In this document: piece by piece, positions 1,668-11,281 of the stretch
Layout: the number at the start of each line of letters is the position of its first letter
Numbering within the stretch: position 1 is the first letter of the stretch
Origin: SAR116 cluster bacterium AG-426-A06
GTDB taxonomy: Bacteria > Pseudomonadota > Alphaproteobacteria > Puniceispirillales > Marisalimonadaceae
NCBI GenBank assembly: GCA_003210115.1
Contig: QCNM01000007.1
Coordinates: 1-35,717, forward strand
Length of the DNA: 35,717 nucleotides
Reading direction: 5' to 3'
Made by a program: the position numbers and the translations under genes
The notes under the pieces: generated by a model
Database searches by the model: none
What the model was told of the DNA's origin: nothing
What the model saw: only the letters and a program-made list of their open reading frames with translations

Positions 1668-1817
1668 TTAGTTGCAACAGTTATCTTTTTCACTGCAACA
1701 TCCTTCATTACAACAAGAACTACTGCACTCTCCAGTATTACAACCGTCACTACAACAACCATTTGTACAACAAGTGTTTTTACAACATGTATTTTCATTG
1801 TCAATATGTACAGTCAT
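1668..1817 (-). CDS. Small cysteine-rich CC-motif peptide (metallothionein-like?), 49 aa
   Basis: Hand translation: MTVHIDNENTCCKNTCCTNGCCSDGCNTGECSSSCCNEGCCSEKDNCCN*; 14/49 Cys; SD GGAG-6 nt-ATG (ggagtaaataatg). Antisense to the listed 1672..1947 ORF. Confidence 0.75.
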   Translation of the reverse strand: MTVHIDNENTCCKNTCCTNGCCSDGCNTGECSSSCCNEGCCSEKDNCCN

Positions 1818-1823
1818 TATTTA

Positions 1824-1839
1824 CTCCATTACTAAAGTT
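1824..1839. repeat. Direct repeat copy 2 flanking the CC-peptide ORF (ctccattactaaagtt), contains its SD
   Basis: 15/16 identical to 1650-1665; spacing 174 bp. Confidence 0.7.
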
Positions 1840-1954
1840 ACGACTAAGAATCTAGATTATATAGGGCTAATTATAATAATCATATTTATTTTAAAAATAC
1901 TTTTGATAAGAAAACAAATCATTGATATTATTGACTTTTATTTTTGAAAATCAT

Positions 1955-1968: not shown

Positions 1969-2020
1969 AACGTTAAAATTTTTCTATTTTAATATCAATC
2001 ATTTACTACCTAGCAATAGT

Positions 2021-2042
2021 TAGTGTGCAACTAGTGTGTAAC
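2021..2042. repeat. Tandem 11-bp repeats tagtgtgcaac/tagtgtgtaac, possible integrase arm-type sites
   Basis: Two adjacent 11-mers with one mismatch; related tttgtgtaac at 2073-2082 and 8122-8131, inverted gttacaca at 2114-2121. Confidence 0.5.
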
Positions 2043-2132
2043 TCACTATCCACTTTGCAGGTTTTATCTACGTTTGTGTAACTATTGCAATTCAATAGTT
2101 TACGCAATTCTTTGTTACACATTGTAAGACGA

Positions 2133-2159
2133 AGAACGTGCTTTCACCAAACACGTTCT
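2133..2159. other. Perfect 8-bp stem-loop AGAACGTG-N11-CACGTTCT at island left end
   Basis: Direct inspection; no T-tract on either side, so not a clear terminator. Confidence 0.55.
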
Positions 2160-2171
2160 CCATTTAACTTG

Positions 2172-2273
2172 TCATTTGTTCTTTTTTGTCACTCGTCTGC
2201 CAAACTGTGCTTGCCTCTCTATAAGCGCATCTAACTCACCATGTTCAGCAGCTTCACGCACCTTAGCTAGCAC
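2172..2273 (-). CDS. Possible small ORF (33 aa, GTG start) in same frame just after the 529-aa gene stop
   Basis: VLAKVREAAEHGELDALIERQAQFGRRVTKKNK*; coding-like, AGAGG 8 nt upstream of GTG; frame is contiguous with 2301..3890 except for the TAA. Confidence 0.35.
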   Translation of the reverse strand: MLAKVREAAEHGELDALIERQAQFGRRVTKKNK

Positions 2274-2300
2274 ATCAGCAACCTCTGCTTCACTTGCTAC

Positions 2301-3890
2301 TTAATATGCGTGGTCTCCACCAATCTGCTTGTCCATCACAGAGAAGTAATATGCATCGGTTAAATACGACCTAGATGTGACCATACACCATCCACCGTGC
2401 TTTCCTAAGAAGTCATTTAATTCATTGTCTTGCTTGACATCAAGGAGAACACTCCCATTGCTCTTGACATTAATGTGCTTCACCAAAGTCTCGCCGTGAT
2501 GGTTAACAAACTCAAAGTCACACTCGGTGTTGGTACTAAGCTCAGCTAATTCTAACGAAGTATTGTGAACTGTCGCGACATAATTTCTTGATCCACCTAC
2601 TGGAAACCATCGCCTATTGAAAGGTTTAGTAAAGGTGTTCTCAGAGACAACTAATGGGGTAAAACATATGTTTGTTCCAAGGTTTTGAGTTTTCCTTTTA
2701 ACATTAAGACCCATTTTAAAGCGCTTAGGGAAGGGGTGTTCTTTACTCACAAAGGCAAGCTTTAAGCTATAGAATTGATCTGTTTCAGCATTGGCTGATC
2801 TTAAAATCTTAGAAAGGTCCAACTTACCTGATCCATTGAAATTAAACATTTCCGCTTGGGAAAGACTTCTCGAATAGATACCTTCTCCTCGCATTGTATA
2901 GATAGTCAAAAGCGCGTCCCCAGCAAAAGATAGGTTTTGTCCGTAAGTTCGTAGCGCCGTATCGAAAGAATTTGAGGGAAAAATTGGAGCTGTAAAAGCA
3001 GAGTCGAAATAGCGATGATGATTCTTATTGCTTGCCCTTAAACTCAACACATTGGCGTTTAGCACCTCCTCTGCTTTGGAAGTGTCGTAGAATGTATGGG
3101 TCAATGTAGGCGGACAATCCTTGTTTAGAATACCAACGTAAAAACGAGGGAAAACATCTTGTAAGTCGTGATTAATTGAACACTTTGGATTCTTTAACAA
3201 CCCAGTATCTGAACTGTTTATAAGGTCTTCCAGCCATATGATATGCATTTGGCCGTATGAATTATTAGTTAATTCTAGATTATAGCTCCTCGAAAAGTCA
3301 TCCTCAACGAGCTCAATACAAAGATTGTAAGTTGAAGAATGGCCACCAAAGAAGCATATGAAATTTTTAGTTTGATTACTAAGGTAAGTATCAAATCCAG
3401 TTTGCGGATACATAATTGCGTAGTCATTTACTGTTTCAGATTTATTATATGTTCGAATACCACTGTGCACTAACGAACTCGATCCATTGCCCTCATAGCA
3501 AACCGTTATAGCAGGAAAAGTGTAAAGAGGCTTATTTTTAGAATAAACCTCAACCTCAACAGACCCACAAAACCCATTTTCCAGATCAGAAAAATAATCT
3601 GAAATTTGCAGTTCGTAAGAGTTATATTCGATGATTATTTTGTATTTTTTATCAAACTGCTTTCCATCTATGCCACGTAAGGTCAAGCAAATAATTACGC
3701 TATTTCCGTGTTTTTTTAACCAATAAGATAAAAATTGAATAGAGGTGGTAATGCCAGAACTCTTAAAAACTGGGAAGATTGTTGATGAACGATTTTCTGC
3801 CTTTAAAAACTCTTCACTGCTTTGGAGTGAGAGATCATCAATGGAATTTAAATTATCCCAAAATTGTTCATAATCGAGAGCTCTACTCAT
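2301..3890 (-). CDS. Island-encoded protein of unknown function, 529 aa, beta-rich
   Basis: Long ORF; more likely start MSRALDYEQFW at 3890, ATG overlapping the TGA stop of the upstream gene (AAAATGAG). No family recognised. Confidence 0.85.
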   Translation of the reverse strand: MSRALDYEQFWDNLNSIDDLSLQSSEEFLKAENRSSTIFPVFKSSGITTSIQFLSYWLKKHGNSVIICLTLRGIDGKQFDKKYKIIIEYNSYELQISDYFSDLENGFCGSVEVEVYSKNKPLYTFPAITVCYEGNGSSSLVHSGIRTYNKSETVNDYAIMYPQTGFDTYLSNQTKNFICFFGGHSSTYNLCIELVEDDFSRSYNLELTNNSYGQMHIIWLEDLINSSDTGLLKNPKCSINHDLQDVFPRFYVGILNKDCPPTLTHTFYDTSKAEEVLNANVLSLRASNKNHHRYFDSAFTAPIFPSNSFDTALRTYGQNLSFAGDALLTIYTMRGEGIYSRSLSQAEMFNFNGSGKLDLSKILRSANAETDQFYSLKLAFVSKEHPFPKRFKMGLNVKRKTQNLGTNICFTPLVVSENTFTKPFNRRWFPVGGSRNYVATVHNTSLELAELSTNTECDFEFVNHHGETLVKHINVKSNGSVLLDVKQDNELNDFLGKHGGWCMVTSRSYLTDAYYFSVMDKQIGGDHAY

Positions 3891-4063
3891 TTTCTCCCCC
3901 GTCCTTCTGCAAGTGAGCCTTTCAACATGCCAGCCGTAAAGCCAAACTCTTTGCAAAGACGCTTTACTTCTTTCAGTGCGTTAGCACGTTCGTTCTTCTT
4001 AGCTTCAACCATCTGCTGCTGAATTGCTTCCATTTCAGCTTTCAATTCGTCATAAGACTTCAT
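3887..4063 (-). CDS. Truncated H-NS/HvrA-like protein, 58 aa, no C-terminal DNA-binding domain
   Basis: MKSYDELKAEMEAIQQQMVEAKKNERANALKEVKRLCKEFGFTAGMLKGSLAEGRGRK; resembles the oligomerisation region of HvrA-type proteins; GGAGGTGTGAG SD upstream of ATG at 4063. Confidence 0.6.
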   Translation of the reverse strand: MKSYDELKAEMEAIQQQMVEAKKNERANALKEVKRLCKEFGFTAGMLKGSLAEGRGRK

Positions 4064-4257
4064 CTCACACCTCCGTTGGTTATGTGTCAGTCTTACATTA
4101 TAGATTTGTTGAGAGGATGAAAAGCACGTTTTATCGACGCTTGCTGTAACGTGTTGTATTTTGACAAAAGTATTTGCACAGCGTCTCACTATGCCAGTCT
4201 TTCACTGTGTCAACCATTCAGTCAAATAGCTTCAAACCGTGCACTTTAAGCGTGTTT

Positions 4258-4578
4258 TCAGCGTTTTTCTCTGCTGTCTTGTTGATTTGGTAACGGTGGT
4301 TGTGGACGGATAGGTGTGAAGTCTGTTTGTTCTGTGTCTTTTGATGCGGTTTGTTGCTGTGGTTGCTGCGTGACTATCTTTGTCTTTGGAATAGCTACAG
4401 TGCGTGTGACTGTCTTTGTTTCTGGCTTTGCCATCTTCTTAGCTAGTGCTACTACACTACTGCTTGTGCCTAGCATCAATTCAAGTGCTGCCCACTTTGT
4501 TTCGTCATCAACACGTTCAATCTCACCACGTATCACATTCAATGCTTGCTGTATGTCTTGTAGGGCACTCTTGTTCAT
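4258..4578 (-). CDS. Hypothetical protein, 106 aa (helical N-term, Q/P/T-rich C-term)
   Basis: ORF in island operon orientation; ATG at 4578 preferred over upstream TTG. Confidence 0.55.
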   Translation of the reverse strand: MNKSALQDIQQALNVIRGEIERVDDETKWAALELMLGTSSSVVALAKKMAKPETKTVTRTVAIPKTKIVTQQPQQQTASKDTEQTDFTPIRPQPPLPNQQDSREKR

Positions 4579-4586
4579 ATAGTTAT

Positions 4587-4769
4587 TTAGCAACTAGCAG
4601 ACTGGGGTGATGCCAAATCACCACCTAACTTCTGTAAGTACTCCACCACAGAAAACTGCAGCACGAAAATTTCACGCTTAAAACCCAATTTCGGATGACG
4701 AGGTTGTTGACGTGAAGCTACAGTGTTACTTGTCAAACCCTCAACTCTTCTTTCCACCACCCACAGCAT
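4587..4769 (-). CDS. Possible small hypothetical protein (~50-60 aa)
   Basis: ORF ends ...FVLQFSVVEYLQKLGGDLASPQSASC; tightly packed between 4258..4578 and 4741..5046; start uncertain. Confidence 0.4.
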   Translation of the reverse strand: MLWVVERRVEGLTSNTVASRQQPRHPKLGFKREIFVLQFSVVEYLQKLGGDLASPQSASC

Positions 4770-5046
4770 CCGTATTAATCTGCTTGTGACACTGTTCGCT
4801 CAGTTCAATAAAACGCTTGCCAAGCTGCGTATGCTGTTCTGTAGCCGTCATACAGCGTCCGTAGTGCTGTAATTTGCTTGCACATATAGCCAATGTACCC
4901 ACACTGGGTTTAACACGCTTAAAACGCAGCGTACGCATATAGCACTCGCTTCTACACAGCCAATCTTTGCTGAACTCGCTTTCGCTGCTTACAGCGCCAA
5001 TTTGCACCAATAACTCAAATACGTCGTTTAGAACCGTTTTCTGCAT
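4741..5046 (-). CDS. Hypothetical protein, resembles DUF6626-type small proteins
   Basis: N-terminal 'VLNDVFELLVQIGAVSSESEFSKDWLCRSECYMRTLRFKRVKPS' recalls the DUF6626 pattern (SxxxFSxDWLgrSxxYxxxLRxxxxxPS); family not verified. Confidence 0.55.
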   Translation of the reverse strand: MQKTVLNDVFELLVQIGAVSSESEFSKDWLCRSECYMRTLRFKRVKPSVGTLAICASKLQHYGRCMTATEQHTQLGKRFIELSEQCHKQINTDAVGGGKKS

Positions 5047-5733
5047 CCTTTTTTCCTCAGTTGATAAATAACAATATGCAAAGCTTGTAAGTGTTACTGT
5101 GTATTTAGCACGTGTTGCTAGTTACAAATGAGATTAAGGTTGGTACGCCGATTGAAATAGTACTGCTGATGCCTTCTGATGTGAGAGGACAAGCAAACGG
5201 ACTGCTCATTGTCTGCTTCAATGCACTACCCCAGTGATGCTGGGATGCCTTAAACGACACACCTAAGTGTGATTAACGATTTTGCATTGTCGGAATGGTT
5301 GAATAGGAACGCCTATTGTAAAGTGAGTTGGAACTGTCATTAAACCAACAAAGTCGCTACGCTGCTTCTGGCTGGCGCGTAGCAATGACTTGCGTAAGAC
5401 AGCACGTAATAGGTGATAGCAAAACCTACCTTCCTCGTTAAGAGTTGTGTAAGCCCAGTTGTGTAATCCTCAGTAAATGAGTGAAGAACTACAGTCATTG
5501 CCTAAAAGTAGGCTTTGACTTGTTCTTCCTAGTAAATGAGTAAGAGATAACTATTCAATCAAAGAAAATCACGTTGTGCTGTATGTGATTGAGCGAATGC
5601 GAAAGAACAAACAGCACAAGTAGTGTTAGCGAAGCTGACACTCAAACAGCACTTCAAATAAGTAAGAAAAGTACAATTATCTTACATTTCTACGTAAGTC
5701 TTTGATGTATGGAAGGAATTATATGAGCACTTA
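5047..5733. other. Non-coding, inverted-repeat-rich island region
   Basis: No listed ORF; hairpins at 5230-5244, 5302-5317, 5327-5349, 5356-5383, 5410-5428, 5483-5528, 5574-5619, 5622-5642; direct repeats agttgtgtaa (5443, 5457), agtaaatgagt (5472, 5531), caaacagcac (5608, 5643). Confidence 0.7.
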
Positions 5734-5802
5734 TTGGTTGCTCAAATAGAACCTCAGAAAATACGCTATATGCACGAAAACATTACATTTAGGTGGTGGC
5801 AT

Positions 5803-6375
5803 ATGGCACAAGCAAAGACACTTAACAAAACAGAACTCAAGCAACTGCTAGACGTAACAAATTCATGCAGTCGTTATCCACTGCGTGACACTACGATGCT
5901 GTTGTTTACGCACTTGTGCGGTTTACGTGTTGGAGAAGTAGCTGCACTACGCTTTGATGACGTACTTGATGCAAACGACACAGTGCGAGACGAAATGACA
6001 CTTGATGCAGCACGTACCAAGTCCAAACGAGCACGTAAGATATTTCTGCCAAAGCAGATGCAACGTCAACTACAAGCATACGTTAGCAGCGTAGCGAAGC
6101 GTCCACAGCACGGTTATTTGTTCGCTACGCAAAAGAGTGCAAGGTTTAGTGCAAACACTGCTACACAGCATCTACAACGCTTGTATGCACGTGCTGGGAT
6201 TGCTGGCGCTACGTCACACAGTGGCAGACGTTCTTGGTTAACTACGTTAAGTCAGAAAGGAGTAAGTGTGTTTGTGCTAGCTGACATGGCTGGACATGCG
6301 AGCATTCAGACAACGCAGCGTTACGTTACTGTGAACGATGAGATGAAGCGTAACGCAGCAGAACTCATTGTGTAG
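5803..6375 (+). CDS. Minimal tyrosine recombinase (catalytic domain only, ~190 aa)
   Basis: GLRVGEVAALRFDD (Arg I), HSGRRSWLT (HxxR), GHASIQTTQRYV (H/Y); start MAQAKTLNKTEL at 5803 preferred over listed 5734; no N-terminal SAM-like core-binding domain. Confidence 0.88.
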   Translation: MAQAKTLNKTELKQLLDVTNSCSRYPLRDTTMLLFTHLCGLRVGEVAALRFDDVLDANDTVRDEMTLDAARTKSKRARKIFLPKQMQRQLQAYVSSVAKRPQHGYLFATQKSARFSANTATQHLQRLYARAGIAGATSHSGRRSWLTTLSQKGVSVFVLADMAGHASIQTTQRYVTVNDEMKRNAAELIV

Positions 6376-6820
6376 ATAAGCTAAAAAGGTATCCATAGTC
6401 TAGCTTCTCAACCAACTCGAATGTTCCGTCCTTACGTAGAGCAGAAAATTCTCCATTTGAGTTTAGCTTTAATGGAACGGGTAGTTGAACTTCTTTAGAA
6501 ATGAATTGAGCGATATTGTAATCACTTACGTACTCATAGGTTTGGGTATCTTTGCTATTTCTTGGTGTTATATCGAAATGCTTACGTTGAGCATCCACTA
6601 CCCAGAAATGTGGGATGATTGCTGTACCGCGTTCACCTAAATAGTCTCCAATTAACCCTCCACTATGCATTGTCCAATCACTATGATAATCAAGGAACAT
6701 CATCATGTTCTGAAAACACTCATTTGGCTTAGCATATTCAAACTTCATCGGTTTTACTTCAACAGATTTTACTTTTTCATCGTTTAACCAATTGACAAAA
6801 ATACGTGTGGCTTTTTTCAT
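6365..6820 (-). CDS. Hypothetical protein, 151 aa; possible papain-like/NlpC-like C-H-D fold
   Basis: Pattern NECFQN...GGLIGDYLGERG...PHFWVVDAQRKHFDITP; convergent with and overlapping the recombinase stop. Confidence 0.6.
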   Translation of the reverse strand: MKKATRIFVNWLNDEKVKSVEVKPMKFEYAKPNECFQNMMMFLDYHSDWTMHSGGLIGDYLGERGTAIIPHFWVVDAQRKHFDITPRNSKDTQTYEYVSDYNIAQFISKEVQLPVPLKLNSNGEFSALRKDGTFELVEKLDYGYLFSLSTQ

Positions 6821-6832
6821 TTACTTACCTTT

Positions 6833-8068
6833 CTATAACACTTCAATAGTGCCATCATCTCTACGTCTGTAGTCAGCTACAGCGTTGGTTAAGCGAATTT
6901 CGTCATTCAAGTGGTAATACGTCTTTTCAATTTGCGCCACGCTAGTGCCACACATATCTGCTATTTGTCTAAACGTTAAGCCACTCATAATACGCTGCGT
7001 AATCATAAAGTGACGCAAGCTGTAGGGTACTAAGTCACGTACTTCCCTATCTACAATATCTGCTAACTCAATCATCTTGTGCCAGTGGTATAGCAGCGTA
7101 CGCTTGCTTAGTTCGTTCTCGTTATCCACTGTAAAGATTAGTTCGTCAGCACTTTTAGGCTTAGAGATTTCGCGTAAGCGTTCAAAGTACTGTCCATTAC
7201 GACACAAGAAGGTACGACTTGTGCGCACTTTACTCGTCTCTGCGCGAACGTGGATACGCGCTAGCTTTTGTTCCTCGCCATTCACTTTGTGCTGTTCAAT
7301 CTGCACGTCACTCCAACGTAGCTGTCGCTGTTCACCAACTCGTAAACCACTATTAGCTGCGATTAGAACGTAATGCTGCACGATTTTTCGCACTTTAAGT
7401 TCTGCATCATCTAGCTTGTTATGTTTGGCAGTGTAGGTACGCATAGCGCGATACAGTGCTTCGTATTCGTCATTAGTAAGTGTTGCACGACGAATAGCTT
7501 CATTGCCTTTATCCAAGCGTGGCAACTTCTTAAAGTCGAAGCCATCAATGTGTGTTTCACCATTCTTATGCAGCCACTTCATCAACGCATTAATTGTGCT
7601 TTGTTCGTTTTGCACAGTGACTTGTTTGACGTTCCCGTTGGTGGCTTTGTGGCGATGGTAGAAGTAGTTTTCGCAGTCAGTACGTTCTAGTTCTTTCAGC
7701 TTAGTATCTTTGCCAATGAAGCTAAGAAAGTGCTGTAGATGCGTTGCGATTGTTGTGTGTCGTCCTTTGACTATTTGTCCAAGTTCAACGTCACGCTGTC
7801 GAAAGCTAAGATACTTCTCCACACCTTCTTTTGTGGTTATGGAGAAGTATGATTTGCCTTGTTGTAGATTAGCGTAAATCTCTAAATACGCAGCTTTACC
7901 CTTTTCTATTGCAGTGGCTTCACTGCGTGTACGAAGGCTTTTACGTGCGTACTTGTTTTCTTTTGGTAACCACATGCGAAACTGCCAATACTCACCTCGC
8001 TTGTAGATACAAGCTTCGTCAAATATTGCTATTTCGCCTTCAGCAAATTGCTGTTTCTTCAGTGCCAA
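6833..8068 (-). CDS. Tyrosine-type site-specific integrase of the guaA island
   Basis: N-terminal arm-binding-like segment (YKRGEYWQFRMWLPKENKYARKSLRTRSEATA), SGLRVGEQRQLRW, YSLRHFMIT, TYYHL; adjacent to guaA attachment site. Confidence 0.93.
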   Translation of the reverse strand: MALKKQQFAEGEIAIFDEACIYKRGEYWQFRMWLPKENKYARKSLRTRSEATAIEKGKAAYLEIYANLQQGKSYFSITTKEGVEKYLSFRQRDVELGQIVKGRHTTIATHLQHFLSFIGKDTKLKELERTDCENYFYHRHKATNGNVKQVTVQNEQSTINALMKWLHKNGETHIDGFDFKKLPRLDKGNEAIRRATLTNDEYEALYRAMRTYTAKHNKLDDAELKVRKIVQHYVLIAANSGLRVGEQRQLRWSDVQIEQHKVNGEEQKLARIHVRAETSKVRTSRTFLCRNGQYFERLREISKPKSADELIFTVDNENELSKRTLLYHWHKMIELADIVDREVRDLVPYSLRHFMITQRIMSGLTFRQIADMCGTSVAQIEKTYYHLNDEIRLTNAVADYRRRDDGTIEVL

Positions 8069-8109
8069 ATCTTAGTCTCTAAGTTACTACGAGTTTCAGT
8101 AGTCACACG

Positions 8110-8131
8110 TTTGTGCAACATTTTGTGTAAC
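8110..8131. repeat. Right-end repeats tttgtgcaac / tttgtgtaac, possible arm-type sites
   Basis: tttgtgtaac identical to 2073-2082 at the left end; both near att cores. Confidence 0.5.
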
Positions 8132-8231
8132 TGTATGAAAAAAGACTAAGGAAATCAACGATTGATTTTTTAGTGTGAAAGTAATGTGTAAGTCAATAAT
8201 ACAATTAAATCAATAATTTACAATAGAAAAA

Positions 8232-11281
<3,050 letters not shown>

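Follow-up and report, generated by a model that had tools for sequence, protein, structure and literature searches.

The locus at positions 1668 to 1817 of contig QCNM01000007.1, from the marine SAR116 cluster bacterium AG-426-A06, raises the question of which of its two strands is read and what the product would do. In the stretch analyzed here, which comprises 35,717 nucleotides and is hereafter called the window, the program-made list of open reading frames (ORFs) holds a glutamine- and leucine-rich ORF of 91 amino acids with a TTG start (1672–1947, plus strand). The minus strand of 1668–1817 encodes a 49-residue peptide in which 14 residues (28.6%) are cysteine. Its translation agreed exactly with a first-pass annotation of the window, which had described an ATG start, 49 residues, 14 cysteines, and a stop, here TAA. 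The GGAG that this annotation placed 6 nt upstream of the ATG was found at 1824–1827 (minus strand) as a Shine-Dalgarno-like site, and the spacing that it gave, CC-X3-CC-X3-CC-X3-C-X4-C-X3-CC-X3-CC-X5-CC, was correct. This layout is nearly mirror-symmetric, with seven cysteines on either side of its midpoint, and we refer to the ORF as the CC gene. Its protein contains no phenylalanine, tryptophan, or tyrosine, and a single, non-conserved histidine. The gene is present in a single copy in its own genome, and the ORF alone is flanked by a 16-bp direct repeat, AACTTTAGTAAT(G/A)GAG (1650–1665 and 1824–1839, 15/16 matches), which takes in its Shine-Dalgarno-like site. This repeat was seen in the window but in none of the relatives; it is possibly the remnant of a lost tandem copy.

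Homologues with the same cysteine layout were found in dozens of genomes, mostly with 55–77% identity. A scan of one genome per bacterial and archaeal species returned 12 relatives, all from SAR116 or from records labelled as other marine Alphaproteobacteria. In whole-genome searches, 29 of the 136 SAR116 genomes (the window's order) contained the gene, among them species of the same genus, as did 17 of the 32 from a second alphaproteobacterial order with genomes of 0.9–2 Mb, possibly HIMB59/AEGEAN-169. One genome of a third order also carried it, and it was not found in 398 further genomes sampled across the phylum. Two weak class-level matches (G331 and G202, E-values of 0.004–0.009) were not counted, since the fetched loci contained no similar CC-rich ORF. 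No relative was present in the collections of viral contigs, phages, and plasmids. The first-pass annotation had named beforehand two observations on which its proposal was to stand or fall, namely homologues that keep the CC spacing and a synonymous bias in their substitutions, and both were found.

Selection was analyzed on 39 distinct sequences chosen for the full 14-cysteine pattern, and alignments made without that choice agree. All 14 cysteines were kept, with changes between TGT (367 codons) and TGC (179 codons) only, and both codons occur in every cysteine column. The cysteine pattern is under selection. The ratio of nonsynonymous to synonymous differences (pN/pS) in the CC frame was 0.18 overall and 0.36 at non-cysteine codons; in pairwise comparisons with the window sequence, nonsynonymous divergence (Ka) was 0.13–0.23 and synonymous divergence (Ks) ranged from 0.45 to saturation. 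The bias expected by the first-pass annotation was thus present, but the two strands proved harder to separate by it than had been assumed: the antisense frame also had a low pN/pS (0.23), because its wobble position coincides with that of the sense frame. Substitution bias alone was rejected as proof of the frame for this reason.

The frame is settled by its boundaries. The first cysteine follows the sense start by 10 codons in nearly all loci (by seven in the f3 subtype), a start together with a Shine-Dalgarno-like site was recovered under a strict pattern in at least 37 of 49 loci, and the stop follows the last cysteine by no more than a few codons. In relatives, the antisense frame varies from 0 to 144 amino acids with no common start or end. 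As the start, the Shine-Dalgarno site, and the stop are conserved on the sense side, the 91-amino-acid ORF is judged spurious, as had been suspected. The low antisense pN/pS could otherwise have been taken to mean that no protein is made here and that what is conserved is an RNA or the ORF on the other strand; its origin in coinciding third positions, set beside the conserved sense boundaries, makes this hardly conceivable. To judge from this conservation, the CC ORF is a genuine protein-coding gene that has escaped annotation.

Members L060 and L061 form a subtype with an extra cysteine in the five-residue gap, giving a 3-C-3 spacing, and one complete CC-X3 unit is missing in frame from each of three others (L054, L055, and L056), as expected for a modular set of metal ligands. 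Members from the second order carry one tyrosine or phenylalanine beside a CC pair. Inspection of the alignment by eye showed a short, hydrophilic N-terminus of 10 residues in nearly all members, with neither a signal peptide nor a leader. Some copies depart from the pattern: the L055 gene has a TGA before its last cysteine pair, which is lost, and decaying extra copies were seen in L057 (cysteine losses), L058 (a deletion and cysteine losses), and L101 (frame disrupted).

The protein shares the features by which metallothioneins are recognized in sequence, being short, more than about 25% cysteine, with few or no aromatic residues and a conserved cysteine spacing. We consider it probable that it is a small, cytosolic, metallothionein-like metal-thiolate buffer carried as passenger cargo of genomic islands; metal binding, the metal, and the cytosolic location are inferred. 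The 14 cysteines, mostly paired and seven to each side of the mirror-like layout, would enclose soft metal ions, either Cu(I) or Zn(II)/Cd(II), as a cluster, so that these are buffered or stored and other proteins are spared. No family match was obtained for any of 26 members in Pfam, NCBIfam, or PHROGs, and no match to the protein was found in the PDB; a match to Keratin_B2 (E-value of 0.76) was attributed to composition and set aside. AlphaFold predicted no fold with confidence when the chain was modelled without metal (mean predicted local distance difference test score, pLDDT, of 57.6), a low-confidence model that is compatible with metal-dependent folding but is not proof of it.

The difference from the classical bacterial metallothioneins SmtA and BmtA, noted at first pass, was borne out. 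Neither the window protein nor any of the 26 members matched PF02069, and none of the order's 136 genomes contained this family, with the control detected in Synechococcus elongatus. The likeness to SmtA, BmtA, and the Pseudomonas metallothionein is that of a small, cytosolic-type, cysteine-rich protein, but SmtA and BmtA use about nine cysteines plus histidine, whereas the CC protein has 14 cysteines mostly in CC pairs, a single non-conserved histidine, and no Zur box upstream. MymT, the cysteine-rich Cu(I) metallothionein of mycobacteria, is likewise bacterial and about 50 residues long, but it belongs to another lineage with another cysteine spacing, and the CC protein has no NCBIfam match. 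MymT is named in PMC7387436. In marine Synechococcus WH8102, bmtA is activated by Zur and has a neighbour weakly similar to a phage integrase (PMC9337993). Consecutive-cysteine runs that hold most of the cysteines are also found in the subfamily 7a metallothioneins of Tetrahymena, with CC and CCC clusters, which are induced more by cadmium than by copper (PMC1808422). These are, however, eukaryotic and much longer proteins (up to 54 cysteines), and their commonest unit is C2X6, versus C2X3 in the CC protein; no homology is claimed, and the likeness is at most convergent.

The genomic setting of the gene is that of an island with attachment sites, which the first-pass annotation had not noticed. 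In the window, the 3′ end of guaA (GMP synthase; 8232–9812, minus strand) is the target of integration. Its chromosomal attachment sequence, TTGAGTGGGAGTAG (8229–8253, minus strand), contains the known island integration site GAGTGGGA (PMC9376610), and the guaA end, AGGCACTATTGAGTGGGAGTAGTTT, recurs both upstream and downstream of the CC gene, also on the minus strand. Copy B (1948–1972) lies upstream of the gene, matches at 18 of 25 positions, and keeps GAGTGGGA as an internal attachment-like site. Copy A (1468–1492), downstream, matches at 21 of 25 positions and forms the outer attachment-like site; its core is degenerate, and it lies 11 bp from the stop of a MaoC-like gene (PF01575; 1010–1456, plus strand), which is conserved to the right of the site. 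In dinucleotide shuffles, the chance of reaching at least 18/25 was 0.0025, and 21/25 was reached in none of 2000. The window thus holds three sites, the last two of which enclose the CC gene. Between guaA and copy B lies a 6-kb island of higher GC content (1973–8228, mostly 0.34–0.46, with flanks of about 0.26–0.31), which separates the CC gene from guaBA and encodes two tyrosine recombinases (both PF00589): one at 5734–6375 (plus strand, E-value of 3.8e-29) and one at 6833–8068 (minus strand, E-value of 3.2e-13). The congeners have this site empty or differently filled: the guaA-maoC gap is about 60–70 bp in G052 and G055, and in G053, G056, and G060 it holds 6–8 kb of other cargo with further copies of the guaA end. 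A relative of one of the island recombinases was found in G056. The island also contains an ORF of about 529–551 amino acids (2301–3956, minus strand) with no Pfam match and a DUF6626 protein (4741–5046).

The CC gene also occurs near guaA in eight other loci. A second copy of the guaA end was present in three of them: in L049 the copies flank the CC gene as in the window, and in L047 and L002 they lie beside it. Elsewhere, the target differs. The CC gene of L012 is bracketed by tRNA-Arg and a repeat of that tRNA's 3′ end (29/30 matches); in L045 and L056, the bracketing sequences are identical copies (30/30) of the 3′ end of tRNA-Met. One second-order genus has the CC gene downstream of the transfer-messenger RNA (tmRNA) gene and the repeats of its 3′ end, next to zur. 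These tmRNA repeats were seen in L085 (as many as three beyond the gene), L086, L098, and L101, and mark an integration hotspot in that genus. Integrases were found within 4 kb of the CC gene in four loci (L050, L059, L060, and L087). No glmS 3′-end repeats were detected near the CC gene in the five loci inspected. Small proteins of about 60–95 amino acids with a zinc-ribbon-like CxxC...CxxC pattern, and no Pfam match above the cut-off, recur in the vicinity of the CC gene, in many cases flanking it (L006–L012, L045, L049, L050, L055, L058, L059, L093, and L094).

Attachment-like repeats and empty sites are both present, and the recombinases presumably moved the CC gene. Together, the repeats and the integrases at varied sites argue that the gene is cargo of site-specific integrative islands and belongs to the flexible genome. 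It would be a self-contained passenger at integration hotspots, namely the guaA 3′ end, tRNA-Met, tRNA-Arg, and, in one order, the vicinity of tmRNA; such a position would explain its presence or absence from strain to strain. A precedent is GIsul2, which targets GAGTGGGA at the 3′ end of guaA and yields attL, attLR, and attR (PMC9376610). Its target and three-site arrangement are the same as in the window (guaA plus two downstream copies), but its cargo differs and the outer copy in the window is degenerate. By description, there is also a likeness to the tycheposons and flexible islands of streamlined ocean bacteria, which are tyrosine-recombinase islands at tRNA-type sites carrying small niche cargo, and tycheposons reportedly occur in Methylophilaceae; in the window, however, the target is guaA and the cargo a putative metal-thiolate peptide.

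Neighbouring genes offer clues to the metal, though no more than clues. Two separate families have a pseudoazurin-like cupredoxin beside the CC gene (163 bp away on the same strand in L060; 216 bp away and divergent in L045), and one genus has a CopA-like multicopper oxidase and CopD encoded close by in three genomes. Most carriers from one second-order genus have a Zur homologue about 100–200 bp downstream on the same strand; next come a DUF3299 protein, an FtsX-type permease with a histidine-rich loop, and its ATPase. The L099 copy of this cluster (5342–8443), in which the loop is long, looks like a Zur-linked metal ABC system. The cupredoxin and CopA/CopD thus point to copper and zur to zinc. 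Because copper genes adjoin the CC gene in three separate contexts, Cu(I) is slightly ahead of Zn(II)/Cd(II). We nevertheless leave the metal open, since copper genes in three contexts are set against zur in one genus and the CC/CCC types of Tetrahymena are of the cadmium type.

Several observations weigh against a metal-buffering island passenger. The metal-related neighbours differ between lineages, and the zur and copA/copD linkages may each reflect one ancestral event. Although a Zur box (ATGTTAN5TAACAT) precedes znuA/zur in most SAR116 relatives (10–12 of its 12 positions), scores upstream of the CC genes were at chance level in every copy, a test that is weaker in the zur-linked genus, whose own box may differ; Zur control of the CC gene found no support in these scores. 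Sigma-70 promoter scores upstream of the CC genes were not above those of shuffled upstream DNA (median p of 0.35), so that no promoter is claimed. Finally, copies B and A in the window are imperfect repeats.

The inconsistent neighbours would suit a thiol or sulfane-sulfur store, or a redox buffer, as would 14 thiols in 49 residues and the capacity of metallothioneins themselves for redox buffering. Such a bulk store would, however, require neither the strict spacing of cysteine pairs nor purifying selection on the other residues, and several neighbours do encode metal proteins; we regard this explanation as unlikely. The first-pass annotation had also suggested a precursor of a modified cysteine-rich peptide, that is, a ribosomally synthesized and post-translationally modified peptide (RiPP) such as a bufferin, methanobactin, or another thiol-rich product, with altered cysteines and an extracellular use. 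The CC peptide is indeed short and cysteine-rich with variable ends, and some known cysteine-rich RiPPs bind copper. This suggestion found no support: multinuclear non-heme iron-dependent oxidative enzymes (MNIO; PF05114) were missing from all 24 carrier genomes searched, with the controls detected, no conserved modifying enzyme or exporter adjoins the gene in the 49 loci, there is no leader or signal peptide, and all cysteines are conserved rather than merely a core motif. The lack of MNIO enzymes in particular makes a RiPP precursor improbable. The missing signal peptide also argues against a disulfide-rich secreted or toxin-like peptide, or a defence or addiction factor of the island, an idea that the location beside recombinases and the cysteine pairs known in secreted disulfide peptides might encourage. 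No conserved partner gene adjoins the CC gene, and the PHROGs, viral-contig, phage, and plasmid searches gave no match (PADLOC was not searched), so that this role is likewise improbable.

A metallothionein-like buffer therefore remains the favoured reading, and the family appears to be undescribed, small-ORF catalogues lying outside the search; no paper linking SAR116 with a metallothionein was found in the literature searched. It resembles no known metallothionein family, being new in sequence, cysteine pattern, and island-borne distribution, with a metallothionein-like function that is probable on present sequence evidence. More tentatively, and with rather less confidence than we place in the function, the family may represent a new class of bacterial metallothioneins built from regular Cys-Cys pairs in a mirror-like 7+7 arrangement. 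It would then travel as a one-gene cassette of about 0.5 kb with its own start signals, spreading in abundant ocean Alphaproteobacteria and moved among guaA, tRNA, and other sites by the tyrosine recombinases of resident islands.

Very few families of bacterial metallothioneins are known, and the CC family would be an unannotated one in abundant marine bacteria, present in an order (SAR116) that is otherwise without canonical metallothioneins. The regular CC spacing would also offer a natural experiment, and a clean one, on the effect of vicinal cysteines on metal preference. The patchy, island-borne distribution suggests that metal buffering may be a niche-dependent trait traded within populations of these bacteria, in parallel with the phosphate genes traded within populations of HIMB59 (PMC10734472).
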